25,931 nt of DNA from a virus (IMGVR_UViG_3300025108_000338:1-25931), one strand, 5' to 3'; counted from the first letter of the stretch, positions 2,475 through 25,931 are shown. Numbers and translations: made by a program. The notes: generated by a model from the letters alone, not told the origin.

Positions 2475-3242
2475 TTGAAACTAAAAAAACGTGGTATAGT
2501 AATACCTGATCAGCATTATCCATTAGAAGATAGAGCTGCAGTAGAGTGTGTTAAAAAAGCAATCTTGAAAATTAAACCTGACGTATTTGTAAACTTAGGT
2601 GATGTTGGAGAGTGGGAGTCTGTATCTGCTTGGAGGTACAAAGACAAGAAGTTACCACCTTTAGAGTTTCAACTTCCTATTGTAAATGAAGATATAAGAT
2701 TAGTAAATGAAGGACTGGATGAGTGGGATGAGTTATTGGAGAAAGTTGGATGTAAAGAAAAGTATTTACTTCAAGGTAACCACGATCTCTGGTTGGATAA
2801 TTTTGCTAACAAGTATCCTTATCTTAGTGATTACAGCTTTTTTAAAGCATGTAAAATCAAAGAAAGAGGATATACTTACACAGAATACAACCTACCTATC
2901 CAAGTAGGTAAGTTGGTATTTTTTCATGGTGCGTTTGCAACAACATACCATGCAAAGAAACACTTAGAAACATATGGTGAGAATGTAATGTATGGACACG
3001 TACATGACATACAACGTCATACTATGACAAAGCTTAATAGTAACATTGGTGCTTGGTCTATGGGATGTTTAAAGGACATGTCACACGAAAGCAATAAGTG
3101 GTTAAAAGGTAGACTGCATAACTGGGGTCATGCTTTTGCTATAGTTGATTGGTATGACAATGGAGAATTTAAAGTAGAGACAGTTGAAATTACAGATGGT
3201 AAAACTTCTGTATGGGGAGAAATTATAGATGGGAATATATAA
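2475..3242 (+). CDS. Calcineurin-like metallophosphoesterase
   Basis: This 255-residue protein carries the full two-metal signature of the calcineurin-like family. D12-x-H14 lies in VIPDQHYP, G42-D43 in NLGDVGEW, G101-N-H-D104 in LLQGNHDLW, H151 after a hydrophobic strand, and G174-H-x-H177 in MYGHVHD. These residues bind a pair of metal ions and hydrolyse phosphoester bonds. The start is TTG at 2475, chosen because a perfect AGGAGG (2464-2469) lies five bases upstream. Placed among virion genes, it may process DNA or nucleotides or act on a host phosphoprotein; the substrate cannot be read from the sequence. Its 3' end overlaps the next small gene by 14 bases. Confidence 0.88.
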   Translation: MKLKKRGIVIPDQHYPLEDRAAVECVKKAILKIKPDVFVNLGDVGEWESVSAWRYKDKKLPPLEFQLPIVNEDIRLVNEGLDEWDELLEKVGCKEKYLLQGNHDLWLDNFANKYPYLSDYSFFKACKIKERGYTYTEYNLPIQVGKLVFFHGAFATTYHAKKHLETYGENVMYGHVHDIQRHTMTKLNSNIGAWSMGCLKDMSHESNKWLKGRLHNWGHAFAIVDWYDNGEFKVETVEITDGKTSVWGEIIDGNI

Positions 3243-8633: not shown

Positions 8634-11600
8634 ATGAATTTTAATAACCCTACCTTAAAACAGCTAGATAGCTTAGTACGTCAAAAAGAAATTGAGCCAC
8701 AAGAATATTTCAATCGCTTGGAATTAGCTTATCGTACTAACCCTACTTCTTTTACAGAAGAAGAAGTTGACTATATAGAAAAGCAGTTTAAAAAAGTTGA
8801 TATTAAATTTAATAGAGACATGAAAGCTGCTGATGCTAACCTATTGAGTACAATGAATCAATTTACTAGTGGTTTAGTAGAAGGTTTTACTACTCTAGGG
8901 TGGGCAGAAGAACCTGACACTACTGCTGAATCTATTGCAAACAAACTCGGACACTTAATAGGTTTTGCTCCTGACGTTGTAGCTTCGTTTTTTTCTATGG
9001 GTCGTTACATTCCTATTGCTGCAGCTAAGAGAGCTGCTATTACTGGTACTAGTGTTACTAGAGCTGGTTTAAGTGCAGCTGCTGACAAAGCTCCTGGATT
9101 TCTACGTAAAGAAATAGGCCCTAAAACATTTACATTGCAATCAATACCTATGAAAGTATCTGATTATGTAGTAGAACAATCTAAATCTTATTTAGGTAGT
9201 TCAAGTTTAGTGGCAGGTGGGTATCTATCTAAGGGTATATTTGCAAATAAAAAGTTTAGAAATATAGGTGAACAAGGTATACATCTAGGTGTAGCATTAG
9301 GAGTATCAGCATGGAAAGATGGTCCAAAGGGTATGATGGATTCTGCTATGCATGGAGCTGCTGCTGGTGCATTGTTTGGTACTATAGGTAATTATGTTAA
9401 CGTTGGTAAGATGTTACAAAATCCTAAGACAAGAAAGTATGCAGAGAATAGAATTAAAGATGTAGCTGCTGAAGTATCTAAAGATGCAGCAAAGCTTGAA
9501 GGTTTAAACATGATGATTAAAGGTACCTTAGGTTCTGTAGCACAAGGTGGTATGTCTACAGCACAAGGATTACCTGTACCTGAACAAGTGTATGAATACT
9601 TATTAGGTGCATTCTTTGGTGCTACTGCACGTTCAGCTGGTTTTGGAGATAGAACTAAGTTTATTATGAAGAATGATTACAAGAATTATAAACTTGGTAT
9701 GACAGAAAAAGAAGCTATTGAGGTAGCTAGAAAAGATCCAGATTTCCAAGCGTTAGAAAAAAGCGATCAGCAATATGTAGAAACTTACATAGCTAAGGTA
9801 GTAGCAGAAAAATTTAATGCTCATGCTCCTATTATGTCTAACCTACAACAAATACCAGAGATAGATGCTGCTATAAAAAAACTAGGAATAAATCCTGACA
9901 CCATTACACAACCAGAATTTGAAAGAGTATTTAAACAAGTACAACAAGATAGGTCTGCTGCATCATTACCAAGTGCTGATAGTATAAAAATAAATAGACC
10001 TGTACCTGCAGAAGAACCTTTAGATACTATAGTTAAAAAAAGATCTAAAGATAGTTTAGCTAATGAAGTTCTTTCTAATAAAATAGATGTAGAGTTGTCT
10101 GAAATGATTGAGATGACAGGTCAAAGAGATTTAAATGAACCTAAACATGTTATAAAGAATAGAGATTTAGAGTTAATAGCTAAAGATATTAGAGAAATAT
10201 CTGGAGCTAAGCAAGGTGATATAGGGAAGGGTATAGATGAAATAAATGTTACTATAACAAAAATAGCAAAAGAAAATAATTATGACCTTAATAAAGTTAT
10301 TTCTGGAATTAGAAAAACATATAGCAGATTACCTTCAAATTATTTTTCTGAAGCTGGTGGTAATAGAAATAGATTAGGTAGTTATTTAAAACTTAAAAAA
10401 TATTTTGATAAAAAAACTGACTATGAAATAGATTTATCTGGAGACATTATAGATATAAGAGAAATACCAGGGCAAGATATTAATGGTGAAGTATTAGGTG
10501 GTGACAGGCCAGCTAATAAATATAATAAAACATTTCCAGGTGATCCTTTAAAAGCCAGACTAGTACTTAGAAAAGCTTTTGTTAAAAGTGGTACAACAAA
10601 TGTAGGTCCTGAAAGAACTGTTATAGATACATTTAAAAGAACTTCTGGTGGGCCATTAGATTATGTTAATCCAGGTAAAAAAGTAAAGAACAGTCCTACT
10701 GAACCAATAGCAGACAACTTTACACCAGTAGTACAAGCAAAATTAGAAGCAGCTTTAAATGAAAAAGGTTTATATATTTATGGCGGTAGTAAAGACAATG
10801 GTACTTTATTATTACATAGATACCCTATTACAGATATAGTAGGTCAAAACTTTTTTCCTAAGACTATGCGAGATTTATTTTTTAAAGACTTGCTAACAAA
10901 TACAGGCGTAAATATTAAAGTAAGGGATAAAAAAACATTTTCTAATATATATTATTTAATGGTTGAGTCTGGATTATTAGATCCTTCTCTACAGTTTACG
11001 CAAAAAGCTTCTAGTGATAGACTGATTAGTGCAGTTAAACAATACCTAAAAGAACCTTTGTATGCAAATCTACAAAAATTTAATAAGTATTCTAACTTAG
11101 CACAGGGTGCAGATATACCTTTAGAGAATGTAGACTTTACAAATACTTTATCTAAACAAAACGGTCAATTTAATATGGTTATGGTAAAAGATTTTACAGA
11201 CCCTATGTTTAACAACTCTCCATCTGGTACTGATGCAGCTGTAATAGCTAGAAAAAATGTATTTGATATTATACAGACTAAAAACTTTAGACCTGCTAAT
11301 AATGGATTTTTAAAATTAGTAGGATATAAAGGACCTGAATACGGAGAAAATCCTGTAGGTAATATACTATTAAAGACAGGTACGTTTAGAGCTACAACTG
11401 CACAGAATAAATTTATGGTAGATAACAATATAGATTTTATTGTACCAGAATCTGCAGCTAAAACACAACTTGGATTAAAATTACACACATTAAACTTTGA
11501 TAAAGAATGGTCTGCATCAGAGTCATTAGAACCATTTAGAATGAAACCAGATGAACTGTATTTAAATATGGGTGTGTATGAAAATGATTTAAAAATAAAC

Positions 11601-14600
11601 AAACCTGCTCCATTTCAGAAACAAATATTAGATAAAATAAATACAGCACAATTAGGTCCTGACTTATCTAGAACTTTAATAGATGATTACCAACAACTAT
11701 CGCAAAGATCTTATGAAGGAAATGCTGTAGAGACTGCTAAATTTAACCAAGTAATAGCTGACATAACATCTGGTAGAATAAAAGAACTACCTAAAGATTA
11801 TAGTTTTGATGTAAACGATATTAGTATTAATTCTATAAATGATATTATATCAAGAGACCTTACTAGTCCGCTTGCAACTGAAACAATAAAAAAAATACTT
11901 AACAGAGGTAGAGAAGACTATAGAGAGCTAATGTTGGAAACTACAGATGAAGTAGCTGGTAATATAATGGGCATAGAAGTTTATGAAGTTCCAGATATAC
12001 TAGCTAAGCTAGACTATAATCCAGGTATATTGTTACAACCTAACGTAAAACAATTTGTAGACAAAGCTTTGATTAGATATAGAACAGCAAGAGTAGTACA
12101 ACCTTTAATTCAAAATTCTACTACTGGTAAACTTGGACCTAGAGATGCTGAAACATTTGCAAGACATCCAGAATTAAATGACAATACTTTTATGTTAGGT
12201 AGAGACTTTGCTAAAAATTATAATGTAAAATTACCAGAACAATATGGTGGTGAACAAACATTAGAGCAAGCGTTTACTAAATTTAAAGATACTAAAAACT
12301 ATACACAGACTGCTAGAAATGAAATAGGAGAAGCGTTAGAATTTATGTTAGTACGTTCACCTAATAGTAGTAATGGTGGTGTAAGAGTATTATCCTTTGC
12401 AGGTTTTGTAGATAGAAAAGGATTTAGTGTTATAACTACATCTAAAAATGATTACTATCTTGGTGGTGCAGATAAAGATGCTGACTCTGTTTCTATATAT
12501 CAAAACATGCCTAAGAGTTTTAAAGAATCATTTAAAAAATATGATAATGAATTTCAAATAACTAAAGATGTATTATATAACTTTGAAAAACCTTCTGAAA
12601 TATTTAAAGAGTTTGTAAAAGAAGTAGAAAGTATATCTCCTGAAGTTGACTTTGCTAATCTAGTTAATACAAATGAAAGAATAAATGTAGCTAAGATGGC
12701 AAGACGTGGTAAACAACAGATGGGTGTTATTGTAGATGCTATGACACGTATGCAAAACATAGCTGAAGTAATACAAGCTAGACAAGGAGTCTTTGAAACT
12801 AATTTACATTCATTTGAAATGACACCAGATGTAGCAGCAATAAGATTAAAGGATACATTACCAGGTAGAAAGGGTAAGCTTTCATCTACTGAAATGGCAA
12901 AACAATTACAGTTAGATAGTGTTAACGTTGTAAATCTTATGGCTGACTCTGCAAACTTTACTAAAATAGAATTTTATAATAAAATTATAAACAAAGTATG
13001 GGATACTTATTTTACTGTAGATTCTGTAAGTGGTAAATCTAATATATCGTGGGGTAAACAATCTTACAATGTAAAAGATAAGCGTAATTATTTTAAAGAT
13101 ACAGATCATTTACATTCTTTAAGATTAATTGAAAGTGTGCATAACGATTTTTATAAGATGAATGGTGATGCTATTAAACGTATAGAACGAAGTGATTATT
13201 TAGCTGAATCATATTTAAATAAACTAGGAAATGACATACCGTTTTATTCTAACATTGCTAAAGCAGTAAGAGAAACTCCTGACTTTTTTGTAGATCCTTA
13301 TAAGTTTTATTTTAATGAAGCAGCTAGAAAGAATTTAGAAATATCTAACATAGATGATTTAGGTGTTGTAAGACTTCATATATCTAAACTAAGAGAACTG
13401 ATTAAAGGTGACAAAATGTTTAAAAGGTTTGGTATGCAAGATTATTGGACTACTCATATTGAATTAGATAAAGATTTAAAAAGATTAACAGATGCTGAGC
13501 CTTATCATATGCATGAAAAACTAATGGACTATCAAGGTATATTCTATAGTATGGGTAAGAGCAAAGAGTTTATAAGAGAAGCAGCAAGTACTGGATTAGG
13601 AAGTGAAACAGCAGAAAAGATTGTTAAGAATGTTATGGATACAACATATAATATAAAAGGTTATTGGCACTCTGAAGTACAGTTACGTGGCATAGGTAAC
13701 ATGCAAGGAGAAAGAGTTGTAACAGTAAAAGATATGAACAATATTATTATGAGACTTAAAGATAAATATAAAAATGCATACAAGCCAGAGACCTACGAAC
13801 AAATAGAAACTTTAATAGATAGTTGGTTACTCAGTAGAGATTTCAGATCTACATCATCAGATTTATTAAAAAGAGCAGAAGAAGATTTAGCTATTGTCAA
13901 CAAAAAAATTAGAAGACAAGTACAACGTTTAGTAGAACTAGGTAATAACTCTGGAGAGAGCGTAGAGCTTGCTCGTTACATGAAAACAAAGGCTGCAATA
14001 TATAATAAACTTAGACCAACTTTAAATTTTGCATACAAATCTATAGCAATAAAAGAATCTAATAGAAAAACATTCTTTAAAGACCAATATAAAATGTTGC
14101 AAGAGATTACTGAAAACATAACTCAACAAATTAAAATGCCAGAAGAAAAAATTAATCTTAAAAAATTCTTAGAAGAAGAAATACCTTTTGATGTAGCAGA
14201 AGAGTTACCAGATAATTATGATACTAGTAATAGTAGAACTTATGATACTTCAGAAGGTCAAATTAAAAGACCTAAACTTTCAGATCAGCAACAAATAAGT
14301 GCAGACGCACAAGAAAGATATAACAAGCAATATCCAAATAATATTAACAATAGATTTAAAAAAGATACACAAACCGTAGAAGATAAAGTGCAGACTACTA
14401 ATGATATTATGAATGAAATATTACCACAGTTTGATTGGTTGAAAAAGAAATTGAAACCTAATGAACTTGTAACAGATGAAGCTGATATAGAAATAGAAAG
14501 AACTAGAAATATTATTTCTAAAAACCCTTCTTCTATATCTAGATTTGAAGAATTTTTTATTGATTTAACGTTTAGATTAGAAGGTATTGGTAGAAGATTA

Positions 14601-17600
14601 AACACGTTAACAACTCAAGACTTAAAAATGTTAAACAATGCATTAGAAGAAAGATTTAGTGCTAAAAGTATTATAGATAAAACTACTGGTAAAATAATTG
14701 TTAAGCCTGGTTGGATAGATCAGATGCTAAACTATAAAAAAATTAGTGAGAAGCTAGAAACTTTTGAAGAGTTAGAGTATATTAAAGCTGCAGTACCTGT
14801 TATAGATAAATTTGGTCAACAAAAACCTAGGACTATGAATATTATTGTACCAACTAGCACTTTAGAATATGGTAGAAAAAGAATAGATAAGTTTGATACG
14901 TTACAAAAACTAATGTCTTCTGGTATTGAAGCACAGCATAATGGATACTATAATTTTTTAGGTATAGATAATGCTAACTTACAGAGACATAAAGATTTAT
15001 TAGTAGAGCATGCTTGGAATGTCAATGAATATCAAAACGGACAATACCCTTCTAATGAAAGATCTGTTGAAGCTAAAAAAAGAATTAAAGCAGCTTATAA
15101 TGACTCAACAAATGCTATAACTAAGTTAAAAGGTATAAAATTTCCATGGGCTACTGAAGGTAAATCTGAAATGATAGACGCTTTTACATATGCTAAAAGA
15201 TTAGCTAGTAAATTTGAAAAAGATTTAGGACAAATTAATCAATCATATATAAAGAGTAATCATAAAAAGATTAGAGCTTATCTATCTAAACAAAAAGTAA
15301 AATTAGATTTGTATAAAAATACAAAACAAGATAGATTATTTGAAGGTAAAAGTAAAACAGAAATTGAAAAAATGGTAGACAGTGGTGAGATGACTGGAGT
15401 TGAAGCAACATCTAACATGGAAAAAATGTTTTTAAATTCATTTGGTCTTATTAGAAAAGAAATAGTAAGTCTTATGTTTAAAAAGTTTGACTTAGAAGCA
15501 GCACCAGATAGAACTATTTTTCAAGATTTCTTCAGTGTAAATGATTTCTTTTTCATTAAATACCATATGCAAATAAGAGATAGAATAGAAATGGCTTATC
15601 CTAAAATAGATTTAGATAGACCTTTAAATCTTAAACAAAAAGAAATCGTTGAATCCTTTATTAAAAGAGAGATGGGTAAGGCTTCCTATGCTAAACACAT
15701 TGTTGGTGACGTGTATAGGGGATATATGCCTCGTATGGGGCACTATGATGTAGCTGCTAACATACCTGAGATACAAAAGTTTATGAAAAAACAAGTAGAA
15801 AGAAAAATTAAAGAAGTTAGTAAACCAGGTAATCATAAAATGTTGCCATTAGATTTACGTATGGCTGTTGAATATAAAGAGATGACAAAGCAAGAAGCTA
15901 TACGTGTTTATAAATCTACGTTACTTGCTAGGTTTGAAAGAAATGCTGAGAACAATGCTACTAATGGATCGTTAGAATCGGAAGCTCAAGTAAGAGATTT
16001 GTTTACAAGAAGTAATTACAAAGGATATGTTGGTGAATATACAGCATCTATGTTTAAAAATAGAAGCGATGCGTTTATTCCTTTTTATAAAAAAGATTTA
16101 GATATTATTAAAAGATATAAACAACAATTAGTTAAAGCACATTTAACAAACTTAGCTGGTTTTAGTTCAGAACTATTGTTAAGAAACTTTGACAAAGTTA
16201 ATAAGAAAGAAAAGTTTGCAGAAAATTGGTCAAGATTTATGAGAGACGCCTTTACTAATATGATAGGTATGTCTAATTACAGAGCATTAAACATTCATGG
16301 TATTGAAAAGAAAGATCAAGCTTTGTATAAACGTTACATAAAAAACAAACTATCTAGAAAGAAAATGCTTTTAAGCGTAGCGGATAAAGAAAAAATATTA
16401 GATTTTGAAATAGCTATACGTGTTAATGGTGCTGAAAAAGAAAATATATTAATGAGAGCTAACAACAATATTGAAGTAGCTAAGAAAGAAGTTAATAATT
16501 TACGTATGACTAGAGCTAAAAAATTAGCACAAGATGTTAATGTAACAGGTAAGTATGGATCTCTTTATCATGTTACTAGTGATGAGTCTGCAGTAAAATT
16601 CTTTGGAGGAATTAATAAATTATTTGGTGGTAAACTTTTTGGTGACCTACCTAGTGTAGATCCTAATACAGGTGCTGGTGAAGCAGATAGACGTAATGCT
16701 GTGTTATCTAGAATAAGAGGGCTTAGTGACTTAGAAGGTAGGTTTGAATTACTGTCGTTGTTATCTCACCCTAAAACAGCTATTACTAATGTATATGGTG
16801 GTACTGTTAATACTATTGCTGACACAGGCTGGAGTGCTTTTAGAAAAGCCAATAGTACTAAAGATGTATTATCTATGATGCAATCTATGAATGCTGAATT
16901 TACTTTTGTAGATGCAACTACTGGTGCAAAAAAGAAAAGAGGTTTTGAATCTAGACAAGATATAGATGCTTGGTTAGAATCATTAGGTGTGTATGATCAG
17001 ATGTTTTTAGACATGGTATCTTTAGATAGAAACTTTGGTAAAGCTGGTGTTCGTAAGTTCTGGGAAGAATTTATTTCTCGTATGAATAAAAGCTATAAAG
17101 AAGGACAAATACTAACTAAGGCTACTAGTGAACAGATAGAAAAGAAAACTTTAAGAGAAGTAGCAAGAGACTTAAAGGTTGATGTACCTATTGTAGAGTT
17201 TGGTGCATTACCTATGAAATGGTCAGAGCGTAAGCTACGTGGTAATGCATTCTTAGCTAACTATATTAATATGAGAGATAATGTATTAGGACCTATTAAA
17301 GAACAAGTACCATTTGATAGTCCTGTTCTAATTAATTATGCATTGAAAGGTGTTGAGTCTTCACAGTTTATGTATCAAGCTACATTTAGACCTAACTTTG
17401 CTAACACTTCTTTGGGTCGTGTACTTACTAGATTCCAACCTTATGCATGGAACAGTGTAGGTAGACGTCTAAAATTATATAAAGGTGCTAGACAATCAGA
17501 ATGGAATAGAGATGTATTAGCTAATAAAAAGTTTCAAAGACAATTTACTATGGATTTAATGTCCTTAGCATTAGCTAATATATTTATAGCTAGTATATTT

Positions 17601-17999
17601 GAATACGCTTTATCACCACCTATGTCTTGGATGCAAGATACAGCTGCTTTATTATTTGGTGACAAAAAAGAACGTGACCGTGCTTTCTTTAGTTCTTACC
17701 CTCACCCAGCATTAGCTCCATTACAAATTGTAACACCTCCTATTGGACGTTTTGTAATGCAACCTATAACCGCTATACTAAATCAAGACTTTCAAACCTT
17801 TACTGATTACACTCTATATAGTTACTTTCCTTATGGTAGATTATTTAGAGATGTAAAAAGAACGTACAATAGTCCTGCTATGGCTCCAGATTATTTAACT
17901 GGATTACCTTTACATCAGATACACGAAGCTCGTAGAAGTAAGATAGAAGAACAGGAACTAGTAGATATGGAAGCAGACTATTCTTTATTTGAGGACTAA
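8634..17999 (+). CDS. Giant virion protein with an embedded two-barrel (DPBB) RNA polymerase core
   Basis: This 3121-residue protein ends the late block. Residues 1-330 hold helical, partly hydrophobic segments such as LGHLIGFAPDVVASFFSMG, typical of large marine phage virion proteins. Residues about 860-1450 read like a two-barrel RNA polymerase. The first-barrel candidate runs from T866-D867 through K899-G900 and K914 to SAAK943. The second barrel has R1241-x-P1243, 39 residues before D1280-K-D-A-D1284, the metal-binding D-x-D-x-D loop. MGVIVDAM (M1363) and A1437-D-x-x-x-x-x-K1444 then match the helices after the loop in RDR-type enzymes. The middle (1700-2450) is charged helix. The C-terminus has a hydrophobic helix at about 2975-3000 and aromatic patches. 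It would be packaged, injected and used for early transcription. The glycine usual in DxDGD is alanine here. The polymerase call rests on motifs only. Confidence 0.75.
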   Translation: MNFNNPTLKQLDSLVRQKEIEPQEYFNRLELAYRTNPTSFTEEEVDYIEKQFKKVDIKFNRDMKAADANLLSTMNQFTSGLVEGFTTLGWAEEPDTTAESIANKLGHLIGFAPDVVASFFSMGRYIPIAAAKRAAITGTSVTRAGLSAAADKAPGFLRKEIGPKTFTLQSIPMKVSDYVVEQSKSYLGSSSLVAGGYLSKGIFANKKFRNIGEQGIHLGVALGVSAWKDGPKGMMDSAMHGAAAGALFGTIGNYVNVGKMLQNPKTRKYAENRIKDVAAEVSKDAAKLEGLNMMIKGTLGSVAQGGMSTAQGLPVPEQVYEYLLGAFFGATARSAGFGDRTKFIMKNDYKNYKLGMTEKEAIEVARKDPDFQALEKSDQQYVETYIAKVVAEKFNAHAPIMSNLQQIPEIDAAIKKLGINPDTITQPEFERVFKQVQQDRSAASLPSADSIKINRPVPAEEPLDTIVKKRSKDSLANEVLSNKIDVELSEMIEMTGQRDLNEPKHVIKNRDLELIAKDIREISGAKQGDIGKGIDEINVTITKIAKENNYDLNKVISGIRKTYSRLPSNYFSEAGGNRNRLGSYLKLKKYFDKKTDYEIDLSGDIIDIREIPGQDINGEVLGGDRPANKYNKTFPGDPLKARLVLRKAFVKSGTTNVGPERTVIDTFKRTSGGPLDYVNPGKKVKNSPTEPIADNFTPVVQAKLEAALNEKGLYIYGGSKDNGTLLLHRYPITDIVGQNFFPKTMRDLFFKDLLTNTGVNIKVRDKKTFSNIYYLMVESGLLDPSLQFTQKASSDRLISAVKQYLKEPLYANLQKFNKYSNLAQGADIPLENVDFTNTLSKQNGQFNMVMVKDFTDPMFNNSPSGTDAAVIARKNVFDIIQTKNFRPANNGFLKLVGYKGPEYGENPVGNILLKTGTFRATTAQNKFMVDNNIDFIVPESAAKTQLGLKLHTLNFDKEWSASESLEPFRMKPDELYLNMGVYENDLKINKPAPFQKQILDKINTAQLGPDLSRTLIDDYQQLSQRSYEGNAVETAKFNQVIADITSGRIKELPKDYSFDVNDISINSINDIISRDLTSPLATETIKKILNRGREDYRELMLETTDEVAGNIMGIEVYEVPDILAKLDYNPGILLQPNVKQFVDKALIRYRTARVVQPLIQNSTTGKLGPRDAETFARHPELNDNTFMLGRDFAKNYNVKLPEQYGGEQTLEQAFTKFKDTKNYTQTARNEIGEALEFMLVRSPNSSNGGVRVLSFAGFVDRKGFSVITTSKNDYYLGGADKDADSVSIYQNMPKSFKESFKKYDNEFQITKDVLYNFEKPSEIFKEFVKEVESISPEVDFANLVNTNERINVAKMARRGKQQMGVIVDAMTRMQNIAEVIQARQGVFETNLHSFEMTPDVAAIRLKDTLPGRKGKLSSTEMAKQLQLDSVNVVNLMADSANFTKIEFYNKIINKVWDTYFTVDSVSGKSNISWGKQSYNVKDKRNYFKDTDHLHSLRLIESVHNDFYKMNGDAIKRIERSDYLAESYLNKLGNDIPFYSNIAKAVRETPDFFVDPYKFYFNEAARKNLEISNIDDLGVVRLHISKLRELIKGDKMFKRFGMQDYWTTHIELDKDLKRLTDAEPYHMHEKLMDYQGIFYSMGKSKEFIREAASTGLGSETAEKIVKNVMDTTYNIKGYWHSEVQLRGIGNMQGERVVTVKDMNNIIMRLKDKYKNAYKPETYEQIETLIDSWLLSRDFRSTSSDLLKRAEEDLAIVNKKIRRQVQRLVELGNNSGESVELARYMKTKAAIYNKLRPTLNFAYKSIAIKESNRKTFFKDQYKMLQEITENITQQIKMPEEKINLKKFLEEEIPFDVAEELPDNYDTSNSRTYDTSEGQIKRPKLSDQQQISADAQERYNKQYPNNINNRFKKDTQTVEDKVQTTNDIMNEILPQFDWLKKKLKPNELVTDEADIEIERTRNIISKNPSSISRFEEFFIDLTFRLEGIGRRLNTLTTQDLKMLNNALEERFSAKSIIDKTTGKIIVKPGWIDQMLNYKKISEKLETFEELEYIKAAVPVIDKFGQQKPRTMNIIVPTSTLEYGRKRIDKFDTLQKLMSSGIEAQHNGYYNFLGIDNANLQRHKDLLVEHAWNVNEYQNGQYPSNERSVEAKKRIKAAYNDSTNAITKLKGIKFPWATEGKSEMIDAFTYAKRLASKFEKDLGQINQSYIKSNHKKIRAYLSKQKVKLDLYKNTKQDRLFEGKSKTEIEKMVDSGEMTGVEATSNMEKMFLNSFGLIRKEIVSLMFKKFDLEAAPDRTIFQDFFSVNDFFFIKYHMQIRDRIEMAYPKIDLDRPLNLKQKEIVESFIKREMGKASYAKHIVGDVYRGYMPRMGHYDVAANIPEIQKFMKKQVERKIKEVSKPGNHKMLPLDLRMAVEYKEMTKQEAIRVYKSTLLARFERNAENNATNGSLESEAQVRDLFTRSNYKGYVGEYTASMFKNRSDAFIPFYKKDLDIIKRYKQQLVKAHLTNLAGFSSELLLRNFDKVNKKEKFAENWSRFMRDAFTNMIGMSNYRALNIHGIEKKDQALYKRYIKNKLSRKKMLLSVADKEKILDFEIAIRVNGAEKENILMRANNNIEVAKKEVNNLRMTRAKKLAQDVNVTGKYGSLYHVTSDESAVKFFGGINKLFGGKLFGDLPSVDPNTGAGEADRRNAVLSRIRGLSDLEGRFELLSLLSHPKTAITNVYGGTVNTIADTGWSAFRKANSTKDVLSMMQSMNAEFTFVDATTGAKKKRGFESRQDIDAWLESLGVYDQMFLDMVSLDRNFGKAGVRKFWEEFISRMNKSYKEGQILTKATSEQIEKKTLREVARDLKVDVPIVEFGALPMKWSERKLRGNAFLANYINMRDNVLGPIKEQVPFDSPVLINYALKGVESSQFMYQATFRPNFANTSLGRVLTRFQPYAWNSVGRRLKLYKGARQSEWNRDVLANKKFQRQFTMDLMSLALANIFIASIFEYALSPPMSWMQDTAALLFGDKKERDRAFFSSYPHPALAPLQIVTPPIGRFVMQPITAILNQDFQTFTDYTLYSYFPYGRLFRDVKRTYNSPAMAPDYLTGLPLHQIHEARRSKIEEQELVDMEADYSLFED
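11220..12965 (+). other. Two-barrel RNA polymerase catalytic region within the giant protein (residues 863-1444)
   Basis: This is the part that carries the polymerase-like motifs. The order SGTDAAVIARK, GFLKLVGYKG, ILLKTGTFR and PESAAK parallels the first barrel of RDR/QDE-1 enzymes (TDG, then QIRxGGxKG, then a Lys). LVRSPNSSNGGVRVL followed by LGGADKDADSVSIY parallels their TRNPCLHPGDVRVL and SDLDGDLY strands. The parallel is by eye and from memory of those families. The expected catalytic residues are D1280, D1282 and D1284, with K899/K914/K943 as candidate barrel lysines. Confidence 0.68.
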
Positions 18000-19260: not shown

Positions 19261-21054
19261 TTATATTTCTATTCGTTTAAATGTCATTGTTTCAGGTTGA
19301 AATTCTGTAACAAATTCTAGCTTACCATCGTCTCTTGATTTTTCTGACTGAATAGTTCTATAAACTTCGTTACGATTTCCTTTAAGTACAATAACTTTAT
19401 CAGCTTTTTGTACTACATTAGACGAACCTTTTAATGAATGCAACCCTACAGTACCTTGTGCTGCACTAGCTTTATTCAAATGATGAACAGCAAATATTAA
19501 AGTGTTGTTACGTTGTGCTATTTGTTTTAAAGCATCTATAACTACATTTTGTTTTTGTATTTCACCATCAAATCTATCTACTTGCATTTCGTCTGTTGTA
19601 TCTACAACAAGTATGTTAGGTTGATACTGTGCTACTACTTTCTTAACAGCTTCAATCTCTGGTGCTATAACCATAATTTTAATATGATCTAACATGTCTT
19701 TAGCACTAAAATCTGGATTGCTTTTGTATTGATTTTGTACCCACTCAGCTGTTTGTCCTTTAGCTATCTGAACAAATCGTCTCCAAATTAATATTTCATT
19801 CATTTCTAATGATAGAAACAAAGTATCTTTCTTTGACTGTGTTACTAAGTTTTGTACAAAAGCAGTCTTACCCATACCAGTATCACCACTAAAGACAACT
19901 AGTTCTCCAGGTTTAAACAAGTAATCAGGTCCACCTGGAAATACATCATTAATGTTTACACTACGCTCTGTAAAGTCTTTCATAATGTACTCTGTAAATG
20001 TATCTTCTAATGAATCTACATCTCTAATATCAAGTACATAATCTTTACGTTTAAAGTGTATACATTTTGGATCGCAATATTCCATTAAAATTGCATCGTC
20101 ACAACCATATATATATTGATTGTCGTATACATTCATAACAGTTCTTTCGATTTCTGATGTATTTAATTCATTTTGTGCCCATTTAATCATACCGTTTAAT
20201 GTAACTATGAATGGTATTCCAGCTCTTTTCCAAGAACTTATCATACGCATCATGTTTTTATTTCTTGAACCTTGACTAGGTCCTTCATTAAATATATGCT
20301 GAACACATGTAACTACTGAATTAGTTTCACCGCTTCTAGTTGGTGTGAGACTAGCTGTATTGTTAAGACTTGATATAATAGATGATTGTAAATATGGATC
20401 TATTATAACGTCTTGTGAGTTTAATGTTGCATAGAAGTTTGGTTTTGTTTTAACATATTGATTATAAGATTGCTTTGATTTAGCTATCTTACAAACTTCA
20501 TCATATGATATAGTCCAGATATCTTCTAAAGGTATCCACACTTTATACAAATTAGTCTTTTTATTTAACGACCAATTAGATCTTATGATTCTAGTTTTAT
20601 CATATATGTTATCACCAAAACTAAAATGTTCACTTAGAGTTGCTTTAACTTTAACATGTAAGTTTTTATTAGGTTGAAACCCAAAAATGTTAAGTAACTC
20701 GACATGATAACCGCTACCACTAAACCAAACATTAACGTGGTTGCTATCAATACCAAAATCAAACAACTCATTACAAACATGTCTAAGATAATTTTGTAGA
20801 TTTTCTCCATCAATATCTCCTTTATCCACATCTATAATTATTCTATTAGGATACACTAAACCGTTATATCCTTTAACACTTTTATTAGTTATGACATGTG
20901 TTGTAAACGTATCATCAAACATATAATATGACTTATACATTTCTTTATTAAAAGCATTCTTTTTTTCTAATTCAAGATAATCATTAAATGGTATTATTGT
21001 ATTTCTATTTGATAAACCATCTTGAACTACTTCTACTACTTTGTTATTTTCCAT
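19261..21054 (-). CDS. Primase-helicase: archaeo-eukaryotic-type primase fused to an SF4 (DnaB/Twinkle-like) helicase
   Basis: This 597-residue protein combines both replisome engines. Residues about 45-210 carry the archaeo-eukaryotic primase motifs: D75-x-D77 in IIIDVD, S112-x-x-x-x-H117 in FSGSGYHVEL, and a basic strand RIIRSNWSL. Residues about 250-335 resemble a PriCT-type linker, with GSRNKNMM and a cysteine/histidine set (C318, C327, C331, H333) that could bind zinc. Residues 375-597 form the hexameric RecA-like helicase, with Walker A G390-x-x-x-x-G-K396-T, Walker B ILVVD485, and a motif VHHLNK followed by GSSNVVQKAD. It would unwind the fork and make primers. The ATG at 21054 overlaps the preceding gene by 19 bases. 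T7 gp4 uses a TOPRIM primase; here the primase half is of the other superfamily. Confidence 0.85.
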   Translation of the reverse strand: MENNKVVEVVQDGLSNRNTIIPFNDYLELEKKNAFNKEMYKSYYMFDDTFTTHVITNKSVKGYNGLVYPNRIIIDVDKGDIDGENLQNYLRHVCNELFDFGIDSNHVNVWFSGSGYHVELLNIFGFQPNKNLHVKVKATLSEHFSFGDNIYDKTRIIRSNWSLNKKTNLYKVWIPLEDIWTISYDEVCKIAKSKQSYNQYVKTKPNFYATLNSQDVIIDPYLQSSIISSLNNTASLTPTRSGETNSVVTCVQHIFNEGPSQGSRNKNMMRMISSWKRAGIPFIVTLNGMIKWAQNELNTSEIERTVMNVYDNQYIYGCDDAILMEYCDPKCIHFKRKDYVLDIRDVDSLEDTFTEYIMKDFTERSVNINDVFPGGPDYLFKPGELVVFSGDTGMGKTAFVQNLVTQSKKDTLFLSLEMNEILIWRRFVQIAKGQTAEWVQNQYKSNPDFSAKDMLDHIKIMVIAPEIEAVKKVVAQYQPNILVVDTTDEMQVDRFDGEIQKQNVVIDALKQIAQRNNTLIFAVHHLNKASAAQGTVGLHSLKGSSNVVQKADKVIVLKGNRNEVYRTIQSEKSRDDGKLEFVTEFQPETMTFKRIEI

Positions 21055-21829: not shown

Positions 21830-22092
21830 TACGCCTCCATTCCTGTACGATTATCATTAATATAGTCTTGGTTTTTTTCACTGATAGCATCTTGCATTGA
21901 ATCATTATGATTTTCCATAAACTCTTCTAATGATTTTGTTGTTTGATCTGTATCAATGTAGTTATATCCATACTGACCTTCGTTATATGCTACTCTTACA
22001 AGTAAATAATCACCATGGTCATTACTAATATATTGAATGTCTCCTTCATTCATGTCTGATATTCTGTGCTCACTAGGCAGTTTCTTTGACAT
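21829..22092 (-). CDS. Small acidic hypothetical protein
   Basis: This 87-residue acidic protein starts at 22092 with AGGAAG upstream and overlaps the annealing protein gene by 20 bases. The N-terminal half looks beta-rich (GDIQYISNDHGDYLLVRVAY) and the C-terminal half helical and acidic. It does not end in a di-glycine, so there is no reason to see a ubiquitin-like modifier in it. Its place between recombination genes suggests a DNA-metabolism accessory; no family recognised. Confidence 0.6.
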   Translation of the reverse strand: MSKKLPSEHRISDMNEGDIQYISNDHGDYLLVRVAYNEGQYGYNYIDTDQTTKSLEEFMENHNDSMQDAISEKNQDYINDNRTGMEA

Positions 22093-22648
22093 TTTTACTT
22101 CCTTCCTCTATTTGATTTTGAAAGTAATCTCTGCAAGTATTAACTCTTATTAGTGTATCAAAATACCCATCTTCTCTTTGCTTTAGGTATTTAAGATAAC
22201 TTTCATTACCTATAATATCTTTAGCTTTACTTGCTAACGCATCAAGACCTGTTAGATCTTTTACTTTAACATGAGATTTTGCTTGTGCTGCTTTAGCATT
22301 ATCTACTTCATCTTTAGAAGCTATTGAATAACCTCCACCAAATCCAGCAAATGCTAATGCTCTACCAACTGCAGATGTTTCACAGTTTTCTAATGCTGAT
22401 GTTTTATTAACAAATCCTGTATTGTCACGTTCAGCTGCGTAACCAGTATAATACATGTCAGGATTGTTTTCTTTGTCAGGATATACAGTTGACTTGATTA
22501 AGTATTCATTACATCTTTCACCTGATGGTGTGTCTGTAATATTGTTTACTGATACAAGATGACTTTCTATTGTAGAAGTAGGATATTCTGATAAGAATGC
22601 CTCTACACGATCTTTTACTTCTGTATATTCTTTACCTTTGAACTTCAT
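22073..22648 (-). CDS. Phage recombination protein of the ETSAVGRALA type (probable ssDNA annealing protein)
   Basis: This 191-residue protein holds the hallmark segment ALENCETSAVGRALAFAGFG followed by IASKDEVDNA (about residues 85-115). It occurs in many phage recombination or ssDNA-annealing proteins of the Erf/Sak kind. The N-terminal 80 residues look like beta strands and helices typical of that domain, and the C-terminus is charged helix. It would pair complementary single strands during recombination-dependent replication, working with the SSB-like protein encoded two genes downstream and the nuclease. The ATG at 22648 has AAGGGA upstream. It is the first gene after the promoter near 22700, so it heads the replication operon. 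Confidence 0.68.
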   Translation of the reverse strand: MKFKGKEYTEVKDRVEAFLSEYPTSTIESHLVSVNNITDTPSGERCNEYLIKSTVYPDKENNPDMYYTGYAAERDNTGFVNKTSALENCETSAVGRALAFAGFGGGYSIASKDEVDNAKAAQAKSHVKVKDLTGLDALASKAKDIIGNESYLKYLKQREDGYFDTLIRVNTCRDYFQNQIEEGSKNVKETA

Positions 22649-22800: not shown

Positions 22801-23451
22801 TTAACTTACAAATCCTGTAGAGTTTAATGACATTGTTTGAAAATTAAAAGAAAATTCTTTCAAGTAAGGTTCTTCTTTAATAATCTGTTTTATATTATTA
22901 CATATAAAACTACCTGTCATATTACTACAGTAACTAGTAGCTCTGGCATTGCAAGGATCATCATCACCTTCATCATCGCTATACCAATGTGATTTGTATT
23001 GTGATAGAGTAGGTTGTTTCAAAGTATACTGTTGATAATGTTCAGCACCCATTCTTCCGTCTATAAGAACGTCTGGTTTTTTATCTTTGATTATATTTTG
23101 AACTGCTTCTAATCTATCTTTCATTGAGTCAAATCCTAGTATGACTATGTTTTTATCTTCTGGTTGATATCTTTCAAACCTTTGATTATAACACTCTACA
23201 TCTATTGAAGGATTAATAGCAATCAATCTATCTTTTAATGCATCTACTTTGGATTTATTTAAATCATTTCTATCATATATTGAAACTCCTATGTTAGGAC
23301 TTTCTACTATATCCATATCATAAAGATAGATACGACTTGCACCCATCTTTACTAATGTTACAGCTGCGGCACTACCTATAGCACCGCAACCTAAGAAATG
23401 ATATGCATACTCATCGAAACTATTTATTATTCCTGAGTATCTTTCATTCAT
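22801..23451 (-). CDS. E1/ThiF-like ubiquitin-activating-type adenylyltransferase
   Basis: This 216-residue Rossmann-fold protein has the ThiF/E1 nucleotide-binding start FLGCGAIGS (G21, G23, G26). The strand end IYLYDMDIVESPN follows (D45, D47, N53), then K66 and K68 in LNKSKVDALKDRL, INP, D108 in GFDSMKDR, and D131-G-R-M. Such enzymes adenylate the C-terminal glycine of a ubiquitin-like protein. C167 and C175 precede MTGSFICNNIKQII, where E1-like proteins often have their cysteines. The usual N-L-x-R-Q after the second Asp is replaced by N-I-G-V-S, so the catalytic arginine must come from elsewhere or activity is altered. It is short compared with MoeB/ThiF. The ATG overlaps the JAMM gene stop by four bases (ATGA), so the two are coupled. 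Confidence 0.82.
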   Translation of the reverse strand: MNERYSGIINSFDEYAYHFLGCGAIGSAAAVTLVKMGASRIYLYDMDIVESPNIGVSIYDRNDLNKSKVDALKDRLIAINPSIDVECYNQRFERYQPEDKNIVILGFDSMKDRLEAVQNIIKDKKPDVLIDGRMGAEHYQQYTLKQPTLSQYKSHWYSDDEGDDDPCNARATSYCSNMTGSFICNNIKQIIKEEPYLKEFSFNFQTMSLNSTGFVS

Positions 23452-24317
23452 TTAAAACTCCCTTCCCATGTTGTTTGTTCTACCATGGTATTTATGTCAA
23501 AGTTTGTTCCTTTGCTGTATATGTATGAATCAGCTAATACTATATTAATTACTGAATCTAACATAACCTTGTCAAGAACACCTACTCTTAACTCACTCTT
23601 CTTTGCACCGAGCTTTCTATTTAAATTACCTAATCGTTTACGACACATGCTGTAATCATCATCCATAGTATAATCTTGTAAGATATCATCTATTTCTGCT
23701 TCAAGTTGTACTTTTTCTTCGTCTTCTTTATCTGCCCACAACTGAACTTGATTCTTAGTTATTTTACGACTTGTATCCCAATTACTACCCCAACCTACAC
23801 TAGTTTTTATAACTGATGATGGTTTTGTACATAACTCTGCCACATTGTCACTAATATACTTAGGCATTTCTACAGTTTTACTTTCTATTTCTACTACTGT
23901 ATCAACTTGCGTACCTGTTTTCCAGTCACTTATGCGTAGTATCTGTTCTTCTTTTAGGTTTATAACTAATGAAAAGTCATAGTCAGTATGTTGATCTTGT
24001 TCAATAGCAGTAGTATCTGTAGCTGACCAAAATACACCCATAGTATGATGACTATGCCACCAGCATAGCCAATAAGGTTCTTTACCATGTTTAATTTCTG
24101 TTTCAGTAAAGTACTTACCCATTGCTTCTTTAGTTATATCTGTATTACCAGCTGTAATTTCTTGCTCTAGTATTACAGGTTCAGTGAATACAAATTGATT
24201 ATTTATATACTTAACAACCATATATCCACCTATTTCACTTTGATATTCATCCCAAGCATGTCTAGCATAGTGTTGTAATGTTGTCCAATCTTCATTAGAC
24301 ATTATGAATTTACTCAT
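23448..24317 (-). CDS. JAMM/JAB metallo-isopeptidase (deubiquitinase-like)
   Basis: This 289-residue protein has an intact JAMM zinc site: E28 in SEIGGYM, then H88-x-H90-x7-S98-x2-D101 in WWHSHHTMGVFWSATD, exactly the family pattern. JAB proteases cut isopeptide or peptide bonds after ubiquitin-like modifiers and can also mature their precursors. The protease domain fills residues 1-150. The C-terminal part has an acidic helical stretch (about 195-240) and unknown segments that may bind a partner. AGAGG lies upstream of the ATG at 24317, one base after the preceding stop, and its stop overlaps the E1-like ATG. This is not beside tail genes, so the lambda gpK type of JAB protein is unlikely. 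Confidence 0.88.
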   Translation of the reverse strand: MSKFIMSNEDWTTLQHYARHAWDEYQSEIGGYMVVKYINNQFVFTEPVILEQEITAGNTDITKEAMGKYFTETEIKHGKEPYWLCWWHSHHTMGVFWSATDTTAIEQDQHTDYDFSLVINLKEEQILRISDWKTGTQVDTVVEIESKTVEMPKYISDNVAELCTKPSSVIKTSVGWGSNWDTSRKITKNQVQLWADKEDEEKVQLEAEIDDILQDYTMDDDYSMCRKRLGNLNRKLGAKKSELRVGVLDKVMLDSVINIVLADSYIYSKGTNFDINTMVEQTTWEGSFK

Positions 24318-24318
24318 T

Positions 24319-25931
24319 TTAACCTCTTTCCATTAATTGTTGTTCCATAGCAGTCATTATTTCTGATGCTGATTGAACTGTTATTGTTTCATTATCTGTT
24401 CCAAATGGTAAGTCAGATTCTTCTGCATAAACAAATGGTTCATTTAGATTGTCTATAACTTCATCTAAAGTTGAATCATTGCTTTGTTCTACAGTTTCTT
24501 CTACTTTAAATAATCCTTTCATTTTGTAAGGACTATCTTCACCATATACTGTATTTAACACTCTAACCATGTCATTATATAAACCATAGTTTCTAGTAAG
24601 ACATTTATCTGTATCTAACATATCTACAGATGCTTGTATACTGTCAAACAAATAGTTTTGTAATTGTTCTACATGAAATGGCTCTACTGTATCTATAGTT
24701 AAGTCAGGATCACAAACATCTCTAAGCTGCATAATAGAAGGTATCCAATTCTTGTCTGTAAATTCCCAGCCAAATGTATACACTTCACTATCATCATCCC
24801 ACTTATAACCTAGCTCTTTTACAAATACAGCATTAGACATGCTTTGATGTCTCCAACTACTATCAGTAGCATAAGGTCCTGGCTTATGAACATTAGATAC
24901 ACCATGCATAGATAATACATTTTCATGCATAGTTTTAATTAACATCTGACCTGAATCTATTAAGATTCTTTCATCCCATTGATCTGCTGGTAATGTAGTT
25001 AAACTATAACTAATATTGTTTAATGGATTAGTAGTTGTTATGCAATAAGTTTGCCATTGATCTAATAATCTTACTAAATCTACAAAATCTAATCTTGTAA
25101 AGGCATCTTTTATTTCATTATCCATATTACCATAACATACATTTTTCCCATTGAGCTCAAGATCAAACATTCTTAATGTTTCTGCACCATTGTTGCCACT
25201 TACAAATGGATGTTTAATATTATTGCTTTCTGAGTAATGTGATGAAATATGATTAGCAAATCTAAAATGTTGTCTGTTAGTAGACAAACCATTAGATATT
25301 AGATATCTATCTATTTCATTTTCTATGTTATATTTACTACCTGAATATAATGTATTATGATTTAACTGATCAAAGCTTTTAACTTGTAACTCTTGAAACA
25401 AAAGATACAATGGTATATTGAAAGATAAATATAAATCATCTTCTAAATTTACTACACCATAAGCTTCTATATCAGGCTTATCTACATTCACTACTGTTAT
25501 TTTAGGATTTTTGTATTTTAAATTTAAACATACATTACCTGTTAGAAACTTTAACATATCTTTTTGTGATGATGTTAATGATTCATCTGTTAACCTATCG
25601 AATGTTTGATATTCAAAATAAAATTCATGCTCTAAGTTAGGTACTAAATCAAATATTAACTTTGCTTCATTTACTTTGTCTTTAAATAAACTAAAAGTAT
25701 TATTTATAGTTTCTTTAGCAACTTCAAGATCTCTATCTGTTGTAATGCCTTGATTTCTAAGAACTTTTAATTGATTTTCTATATTAATTAACGCTCTTTT
25801 AAAATTCTTTTTATTCCAAGACATATGCTCATCTCTGTTAAACATAGTTTCTAAGCTACCAGTTTTGTTGTATTGATGAAGTCTTGTAATTAATACTTCT
25901 TTTACAATTTCTTTGTATCCTGGTTGCCATC
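24319..25931 (-). CDS. Large protein with an E2-like patch, 5' end outside window; partner of the JAMM and E1-like genes
   Basis: The frame is open from its stop at 24319 to the right edge. The in-frame ATG at 25845 has no ribosome site, and 28 clean codons precede it in the window (WQPGYKEIVKEVLITRLHQY...), so the true start is probably outside. Counting from that ATG, K211-H212-P213-F lies 25 residues before N232-G-K-N-V-C237-Y-G. This resembles the H-P-N ... G-x-I-C-L signature of E2 (Ubc) enzymes, with C237 as candidate active cysteine. The Y-P-x-x-P-P loop of classical E2s is not seen. The C-terminal 250 residues are unassigned and end in an acidic tail. It is read directly before the JAMM gene, one base apart. 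The E2 call is inference from a short motif plus neighbours. Confidence 0.55.
   Translation of the reverse strand, partial: WQPGYKEIVKEVLITRLHQYNKTGSLETMFNRDEHMSWNKKNFKRALINIENQLKVLRNQGITTDRDLEVAKETINNTFSLFKDKVNEAKLIFDLVPNLEHEFYFEYQTFDRLTDESLTSSQKDMLKFLTGNVCLNLKYKNPKITVVNVDKPDIEAYGVVNLEDDLYLSFNIPLYLLFQELQVKSFDQLNHNTLYSGSKYNIENEIDRYLISNGLSTNRQHFRFANHISSHYSESNNIKHPFVSGNNGAETLRMFDLELNGKNVCYGNMDNEIKDAFTRLDFVDLVRLLDQWQTYCITTTNPLNNISYSLTTLPADQWDERILIDSGQMLIKTMHENVLSMHGVSNVHKPGPYATDSSWRHQSMSNAVFVKELGYKWDDDSEVYTFGWEFTDKNWIPSIMQLRDVCDPDLTIDTVEPFHVEQLQNYLFDSIQASVDMLDTDKCLTRNYGLYNDMVRVLNTVYGEDSPYKMKGLFKVEETVEQSNDSTLDEVIDNLNEPFVYAEESDLPFGTDNETITVQSASEIMTAMEQQLMERG

Follow-up and report, generated by a model that had tools for sequence, protein, structure and literature searches.

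The virus record IMGVR_UViG_3300025108_000338:1-25931 of the IMG/VR database, a stretch of 25.9 kb referred to here as the window, carries at its right end three genes of a phage-encoded four-gene set that is likely to constitute a reversible pathway of ubiquitin-like protein conjugation. All three lie on the minus strand and are coupled, as the initial annotation of the window had proposed: the gene for an E1/ThiF-type activating enzyme (22801-23451) overlaps by 4 nt with that for a JAMM peptidase (23448-24317), and a gap of 1 nt separates the latter from the gene for an E2-like protein (24319 to the window edge). The fourth gene, for a ubiquitin-like modifier (Ubl), lies outside the window and was found on contig L002 (IMGVR_UViG_3300006789_000113), of the same virus type, which is 99.96% identical to the right end of the window over 9,610 bases and extends beyond it. 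The start at 25845 assumed for the E2-like gene in the window is internal, the full protein in L002 having 602 amino acids (aa). The case for such a pathway is built from sequence, that is, from the four genes with their invariant active-site residues, their constant order and co-inheritance, and the homology of the Ubl.

That the set is carried by a phage and adjoins replication genes, also part of the initial annotation, is confirmed by a terminase large subunit gene about 5 kb upstream in L002 and by genes for a primase-helicase, RusA, an endolysin and a holin in the window. Host contamination was ruled out, given the terminase and further phage genes nearby. The principal features are as follows.

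22801..23451, minus strand: E1/ThiF-like activating enzyme, 216 aa, made up of one domain, with neither a rhodanese nor a Cys domain of its own (PF00899 ThiF, E=6.6e-20, above the curated cut-off)
22951..22953, minus strand: C167 of the E1, putative thioester cysteine within C-x-x-[KR]-x-T, shared by all 34 E1s compared, those of crAss and Flavobacterium phages among them
23374..23391, minus strand: nucleotide-binding motif GCGAIG(S) of the E1, invariant or nearly so
23448..24317, minus strand: JAMM/Prok-JAB metallopeptidase, 289 aa (PF14464 Prok-JAB, E=1.2e-6, above the curated cut-off)
24015..24056, minus strand: JAMM motif H-S-H-x7-S-x-x-D, H88 to D101, identical in all of 69 relatives and also in crAss JAMMs
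24234..24236, minus strand: catalytic Glu of the JAMM, E28, 100% conserved
24319..25931, minus strand: E2-like protein, its gene truncated at the 5' end by the edge of the window (complete at L002:7719-9527; 66 of the fetched sequences fall into its cluster)
24601..24603, minus strand: C415/C509 of the E2-like protein, a further Cys that is invariant in 54-56 relatives and frequently part of C-x4-C-x5-C
25135..25137, minus strand: invariant Cys of the E2-like protein after H-P-[YF]-[IV], C237 of the 508-aa frame and C331 of the full-length protein, invariant in 54-56 relatives

The modifier and its activating enzyme

In L002 the gene immediately upstream of that for the E2-like protein codes for a ubiquitin-like protein of 100 aa with the C-terminus ...NRNSKRGG (L002:7359-7661; by extrapolation about 26185-26487 on the scale of the window, past its right edge). 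A small beta-grasp protein ending in Gly had been anticipated to the right of the window, and with its discovery the objection that the full genome might hold no modifier gene falls away. Relatives of this protein are mostly 65-115 aa long and finish with K-[TVR]-G-G or a close variant, the two Gly being invariant; 22 of 51 stop exactly at the Gly-Gly, and the other 29 continue for 1-59 residues, the one in L024, for instance, terminating in ...KTGGIV. An AlphaFold (AF2) model of the L002 protein (predicted local distance difference test, pLDDT, of 84) contains one beta-grasp, and nearly all of its top 50 matches in the PDB are ubiquitin, FAT10, NEDD8, SUMO, other Ubl domains or MoaD, with E values that are weak (from 3.6e-3), probabilities mostly >0.9 and uniformly one fold. 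At the level of profiles, one compact member passes the Pfam ThiS cut-off (E=1.3e-4), the best PDB match of the family is MoaD (E=0.027), and comparison with MoaD/ThiS gave E=7e-7 and a score of 37, where 80 column shuffles reached no more than 14. Compact and long members of the family match each other with E=1.2e-14. The family thus combines the two features of the ThiS/MoaD superfamily of modifiers, a beta-grasp fold and a C-terminal Gly-Gly; its homology to MoaD/ThiS is strong, and its predicted fold is ubiquitin-like.

The E1/ThiF-like enzyme of the initial annotation is confirmed, its profile matching UBA6, UBA5, MccB, ThiF, MoeB, Cap2 and BubCD in the PDB. In an alignment of E1s, residues R4, G21, G23, D45, D47, N53, K68 and D108 are invariant or nearly so, and the GxGxxG, Asp, Asn and Lys of the superfamily's adenylation site are kept. 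The PDB alignment ends before C167, which we take to be the catalytic cysteine from its resemblance to the canonical E1 thioester motif C-T-[IL]-[KR]-x-[FT]-P. An E1 about 30% identical to that of the window is also encoded at L089:133-792, on a 3.7-kb contig binned as a Spirochaetia metagenome-assembled genome, and this may be a phage contig within the bin.

The peptidase and the E2-like protein

The JAMM protein carries the Glu and the H-x-H-x7-S-x2-D expected of a JAMM/MPN+ enzyme, and every metal ligand with which it had been credited is present: E28, H88, H90, S98 and D101 are identical in all 69 relatives and common to the JAMMs of crAss-like phages. Neither this gene nor the E2-like gene gave a tblastn match among annotated phages.

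For the large protein the initial annotation had pointed to an H-P...G-K-N-V-C patch like that of an E2. The patch, KHPFVSGNNGAETLRMFDLELNGKNVCYG, is present in the protein of the window, and C237 is invariant among 56 relatives, most of which are just 13-57% identical. Most members share [HF]-P-[YF]-[IV]-x...-[NTY]-[VI]-C-[LFYT]-[GD], followed by W and T-x-P-[LY]-N, and in compact members the invariant Cys stands in an HPx...N-V-C-L-x context, the HPN-like setting of the active-site Cys in the E2 superfamily. When the core was aligned by hhalign with canonical E2s, represented by three sequences, the score was 20.9, compared with a mean of 11.2 and a maximum of 16.7 for 60 shuffles; the alignment pairs HPYI..NVC with HPNI..SIC, and C237 with the active-site Cys of UBE2D2. 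PRTRC-B, an accepted E2 family, scored 26.1 in the same test. No convincing hhalign signal was obtained against PRTRC-B, the Cap2 E2 or crAss gp78. The second invariant cysteine, C509, lies far from the E2-like motif; it may have a structural role, bind metal or act as another acyl carrier.

Conservation and co-inheritance of the set

Scanning IMG/VR with the E1 returned 222 relatives, and with the E1 alignment 405. All four genes are present in the order Ubl, E2-like, JAMM, E1 in each of the 50 non-identical fetched contigs whose sequence reaches 3.9 kb or more beyond the E1 on its upstream side; the Ubl ahead of the E2-like gene was recognised by clustering in 47 of these and by pattern search in the other three. 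Where the sequence is long enough, JAMM adjoins in 70/70 contigs and the E2-like gene in 56/57. Downstream of the E1 come a gene for recombination, which is Erf-like, Sak4-like or of an unassigned family, and then the primase-helicase. Protein distances correlate among the four members (r 0.58-0.86) and between these and the helicase (r 0.45-0.70), compared with permutation maxima of at most 0.16. Chance co-location is excluded by the adjacency counts together with these correlations. Within the set, median identity is highest for the E1 (56%) and lowest for the E2-like protein (19%), which falls short of the helicase as well (29%).

When one genome of each prokaryote species was scanned, the result was three weak E1 matches only and no bacterial home of the cassette, which therefore appears to be a property of phages; a plasmid scan gave general ThiF matches only. 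No description of the four-gene set was found in the papers searched on crAssphage or phage genomes and ubiquitin, which does not prove that none exists.

Proposed pathway

What we infer for the four proteins is trimming of the Ubl, its transfer as a thioester, an E2 activity, isopeptide conjugation and the targets of that conjugation. The JAMM would trim residues past the Gly-Gly where the Ubl has them; the E1 would adenylate the Gly-Gly end and probably take over the Ubl as a thioester on C167; the Ubl would then pass to C237/C331 of the E2-like protein, which would attach it to target proteins, and the JAMM would also remove it from them. The 29 Ubls with residues past the Gly-Gly need a protease, for which the adjoining JAMM is the natural candidate, in the way that BilC, the JAMM of the Bil system, trims its Ubl (PMC11354881). 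Where the Ubl already ends in Gly-Gly, as in the phage of the window, the JAMM is better explained as a deconjugating enzyme.

Related genes in cultured phages

A homologous E1 and JAMM are encoded by the phages crAss001 (gp79-gp78-gp77-gp76), DAC15, bajarodcaudo virus 1 and cr85_1, and Fpv1 has an E1, an interrupted JAMM and an H..C protein; crAss001 infects Bacteroides intestinalis, DAC15 B. thetaiotaomicron and Fpv1 Flavobacterium psychrophilum. The E1s of the crAss phages and Fpv1 are about 25-30% identical to that of the window and have the same invariant Cys, and the JAMMs have the same motif; the link through the E1 to crAss001, DAC15 and Fpv1 is solid as a sequence relationship. Upstream of the JAMM, the crAss set has an uncharacterised protein with an invariant H-x-H...C-x-G motif, and ahead of this a beta-grasp-like N-terminus which, in a difference from the Ubl described above, ends in ...KIKSGA and continues into a further domain. 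Profile comparison gave no signal between this domain and MoaD or ubiquitin, and no support for an equivalence of the crAss protein with the E2-like protein. The genes in cultured phages are labelled 'thiamine biosynthesis' or 'hypothetical', and phages in culture with a related set make Ubl tagging by bacterial viruses directly testable.

In Fpv1 (L085:4007-5000) about 1 kb of DNA interrupts the JAMM gene immediately ahead of the catalytic L-I-H-S-H motif and carries, on the opposite strand, a gene for a LAGLIDADG homing endonuclease (PF00961, E=3e-10). No Rfam intron was found there, and the interruption is probably a mobile intron or an insertion at the active-site codons.

Comparison with known systems

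The closest parallel in organisation is with Bil (BilABCD), in which Ubl, E2, JAMM and E1 also form one operon (as in 50/50 contigs here, with the second gene taken as a true E2), in the order implied by the Bil lettering (A for the Ubl, B for the E2, C for the JAMM and D for the E1), with a single E2 and no E3. The Bil Ubl has two tandem beta-grasp domains and that of the phages a single one of about 65-105 aa; the CEHH residues (C, E at +6, H at +8, H at +13; PMC11354881) were not found after C331; the Bil E1 consists of an inactive and an active adenylation domain plus a Cys domain, whereas the phage E1 is a 216-aa single ThiF domain; and the phage E2-like proteins have 430-740 aa with extra domains, in a set that is encoded by phages.

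PRTRC systems (Prok-E2_D protein B, JAB protein A and ThiF) share the order E2-JAMM-ThiF (L093, L094), related profiles (E1, E=1.8e-8; JAMM, E=2.6e-5) and, in both E2s, [IV]-C-x-G with a downstream W...T-x-P-x-N-like stretch. Yet the phage E1 scores 20.8 bits where the cut-off of the PRTRC_ThiF model lies at 144.75, the E2-like protein has no PF14460 match, and its profile comparison gave 17.1 against a shuffle maximum of 17.6. As the tested defining features of Bil and PRTRC are not found, the set, which would work like both, is filed as a new phage variant.

Likeness to CBASS Cap2/Cap3 and Bub extends to the E1 (Cap2, E=1.2e-9; Citrobacter BubCD, E=4.8e-8) and the JAB peptidase. Unlike the E1-E2 fusion of type II CBASS (Cap2), E1 and E2-like protein are separate genes in all loci; unlike CBASS and Bub, the phage set has a separate Ubl gene; and no CD-NTase was seen adjoining the set, though no model search was aimed at CD-NTase. 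Membership of Bil, Bub or CBASS, the bacterial operons with which the genes had initially been compared, receives no direct support. The sulfur carriers ThiS/MoaD with ThiF/MoeB have in common with the phage set the Ubl fold, the Gly-Gly end and an adenylation-type E1, to which the phages add E2-like and JAMM genes and no rhodanese or MoaE partner. A link of Ubl and JAB proteins with phages was already known from another setting, that of tail assembly (Iyer et al. 2006, PMC1779556).

Biological role and alternative explanations

The most likely role of the set is the regulation of replication or host take-over proteins during infection. Its universal presence in the sampled phages, its place within the recombination/replication module, with which it is organised as an operon, and its inheritance with that module favour a core role, and it probably is a core function of the replication module. 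More tentatively, a large tailed-phage group might share it as a core, vertically inherited Ubl pathway, with counterparts among crAss-like phages, in which reversible tagging controls phage replication or host take-over and is carried out by an E2-type enzyme of a new kind, with two invariant Cys and perhaps the functions of E2 and E3 together. Bacterial ubiquitin-like pathways have mostly been studied as anti-phage defences, and here a full pathway is carried by the phages; reversible tagging of proteins may belong to the core biology of bacterial viruses themselves, and a viral branch is added to the question of the origins of ubiquitin systems.

Counter-defence or superinfection exclusion, by tagging or untagging of host Bil, CBASS or other immunity proteins or of the virion proteins of rival phages, is a rather unlikely alternative. 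Anti-defence cassettes are usually patchy, whereas the set is found in every well-covered member and is inherited with the replicative helicase; it lies within the replication module, with no direct sign of a defence target. Of the initial annotation's proposal, the conjugation and deconjugation set beside replication genes is supported; a counter-defence role finds no direct support, and universal presence and co-inheritance with the helicase point to a core function and away from an accessory cassette. The idea is kept as a rival because the fast divergence of the E2-like protein, relative to the E1, would fit changing targets; it is also in line with the defence role of the bacterial relatives CBASS Cap2/Cap3 and Bil (PMC10097602, PMC11354881, PMC13373217).

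Several findings weigh against the proposed pathway. The E2 profile signal of the E2-like core spans 27 columns only; the AF2 model of the full protein, of good confidence (pLDDT 82), has no significant Foldseek match in the PDB (best E=2.9); and the protein belongs to no Pfam, NCBIfam or PHROGs family. In the E1, V56 stands where UBA6 has the Arg of N-L-N-R-Q, a position that by analogy with MoeB Arg73 would be an ATP contact; it is V across the E1 family of the window and G in crAss-like phages, with the other ATP-site residues kept. Finally, the equivalence of crAss gp78/gp79 rests on position and motif, with at best a weak profile signal (Ubl, E=0.003). Foldseek against viral models returned unnamed relatives of the E2-like protein only, and its core profile had no match in the PDB. 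The missing fold match may be due to long insertions in the subfamily to which the protein of the window belongs. Since no solved structure matches the model, the E2 identity rests on the motif, the position and a modest profile signal: of the E2-like protein initially described, the patch and its invariant cysteine hold good, and motif and profile are in accord with an E2, but the model matched no E2 in the PDB.

It is conceivable, if unlikely, that the large protein is not an E2 but a substrate, adaptor or E3-like platform, with E1, JAMM and Ubl acting without an E2, by SAMP-like direct conjugation or E1-only transfer. The absent fold match and a signal confined to the motif speak for this; the canonical-looking context of the invariant Cys in compact members, a profile signal comparable to that of PRTRC-B, and an operon position the same as that of BilB and PRTRC-B speak for an E2.

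A sulfur carrier system, in which the E1 would make a Ubl thiocarboxylate for tRNA or metabolite thiolation, the JAMM would trim the precursor as in siderophore-type operons and the large protein would be a sulfur acceptor or tailoring enzyme, is improbable: the Ubl is nearest by sequence to MoaD/ThiS, ThiF/MoeB models score the E1, and sulfur-linked operons with Ubl, JAB and E1 have been described (Iyer et al., PMC1779556), but no rhodanese domain or MoaE was found in the 28 contigs tested and the E2-like partner, with its invariant Cys in an HPx...xC motif, is constant, so that sulfur transfer, which the initial annotation had named as a possible better account of the JAMM-E1 pair, is disfavoured, and moreover the aligned E1s have no CxxC zinc pairs, no metabolic partner gene was seen, and JAB-linked E1s have been argued to behave more as true E1s than as classical ThiF or MoeB (PMC1779556).

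Neighbouring genes

Two genes of the window flank the set on its replication side:

19261..21054, minus strand: primase/DnaB-like helicase, anchoring the replication module (PF03796, E=6.8e-12; phrog_19, E=3.4e-24)
22073..22648, minus strand: gene downstream of the E1 (phrog_11717, E=9e-29, a family without assigned function)

In relatives, the slot after the E1 holds Erf-like or Sak4-like single-stranded DNA-annealing proteins (phrog_2324, phrog_124). The slot is thus filled, according to the relative, by unrelated proteins (Erf-like, Sak4-like or of the unassigned family), which suggests that the recombinase is swapped beside a fixed Ubl cassette. An Rfam scan gave no match. Elsewhere in the window, the plus strand carries a 3121-aa open reading frame at 8634-17999 without Pfam or PHROG family, the first 1789 aa of which had no tblastn match in 50,697 annotated phage records, and, at 2475-3242, a gene for a calcineurin-like metallophosphoesterase (phrog_221, E=5e-26).

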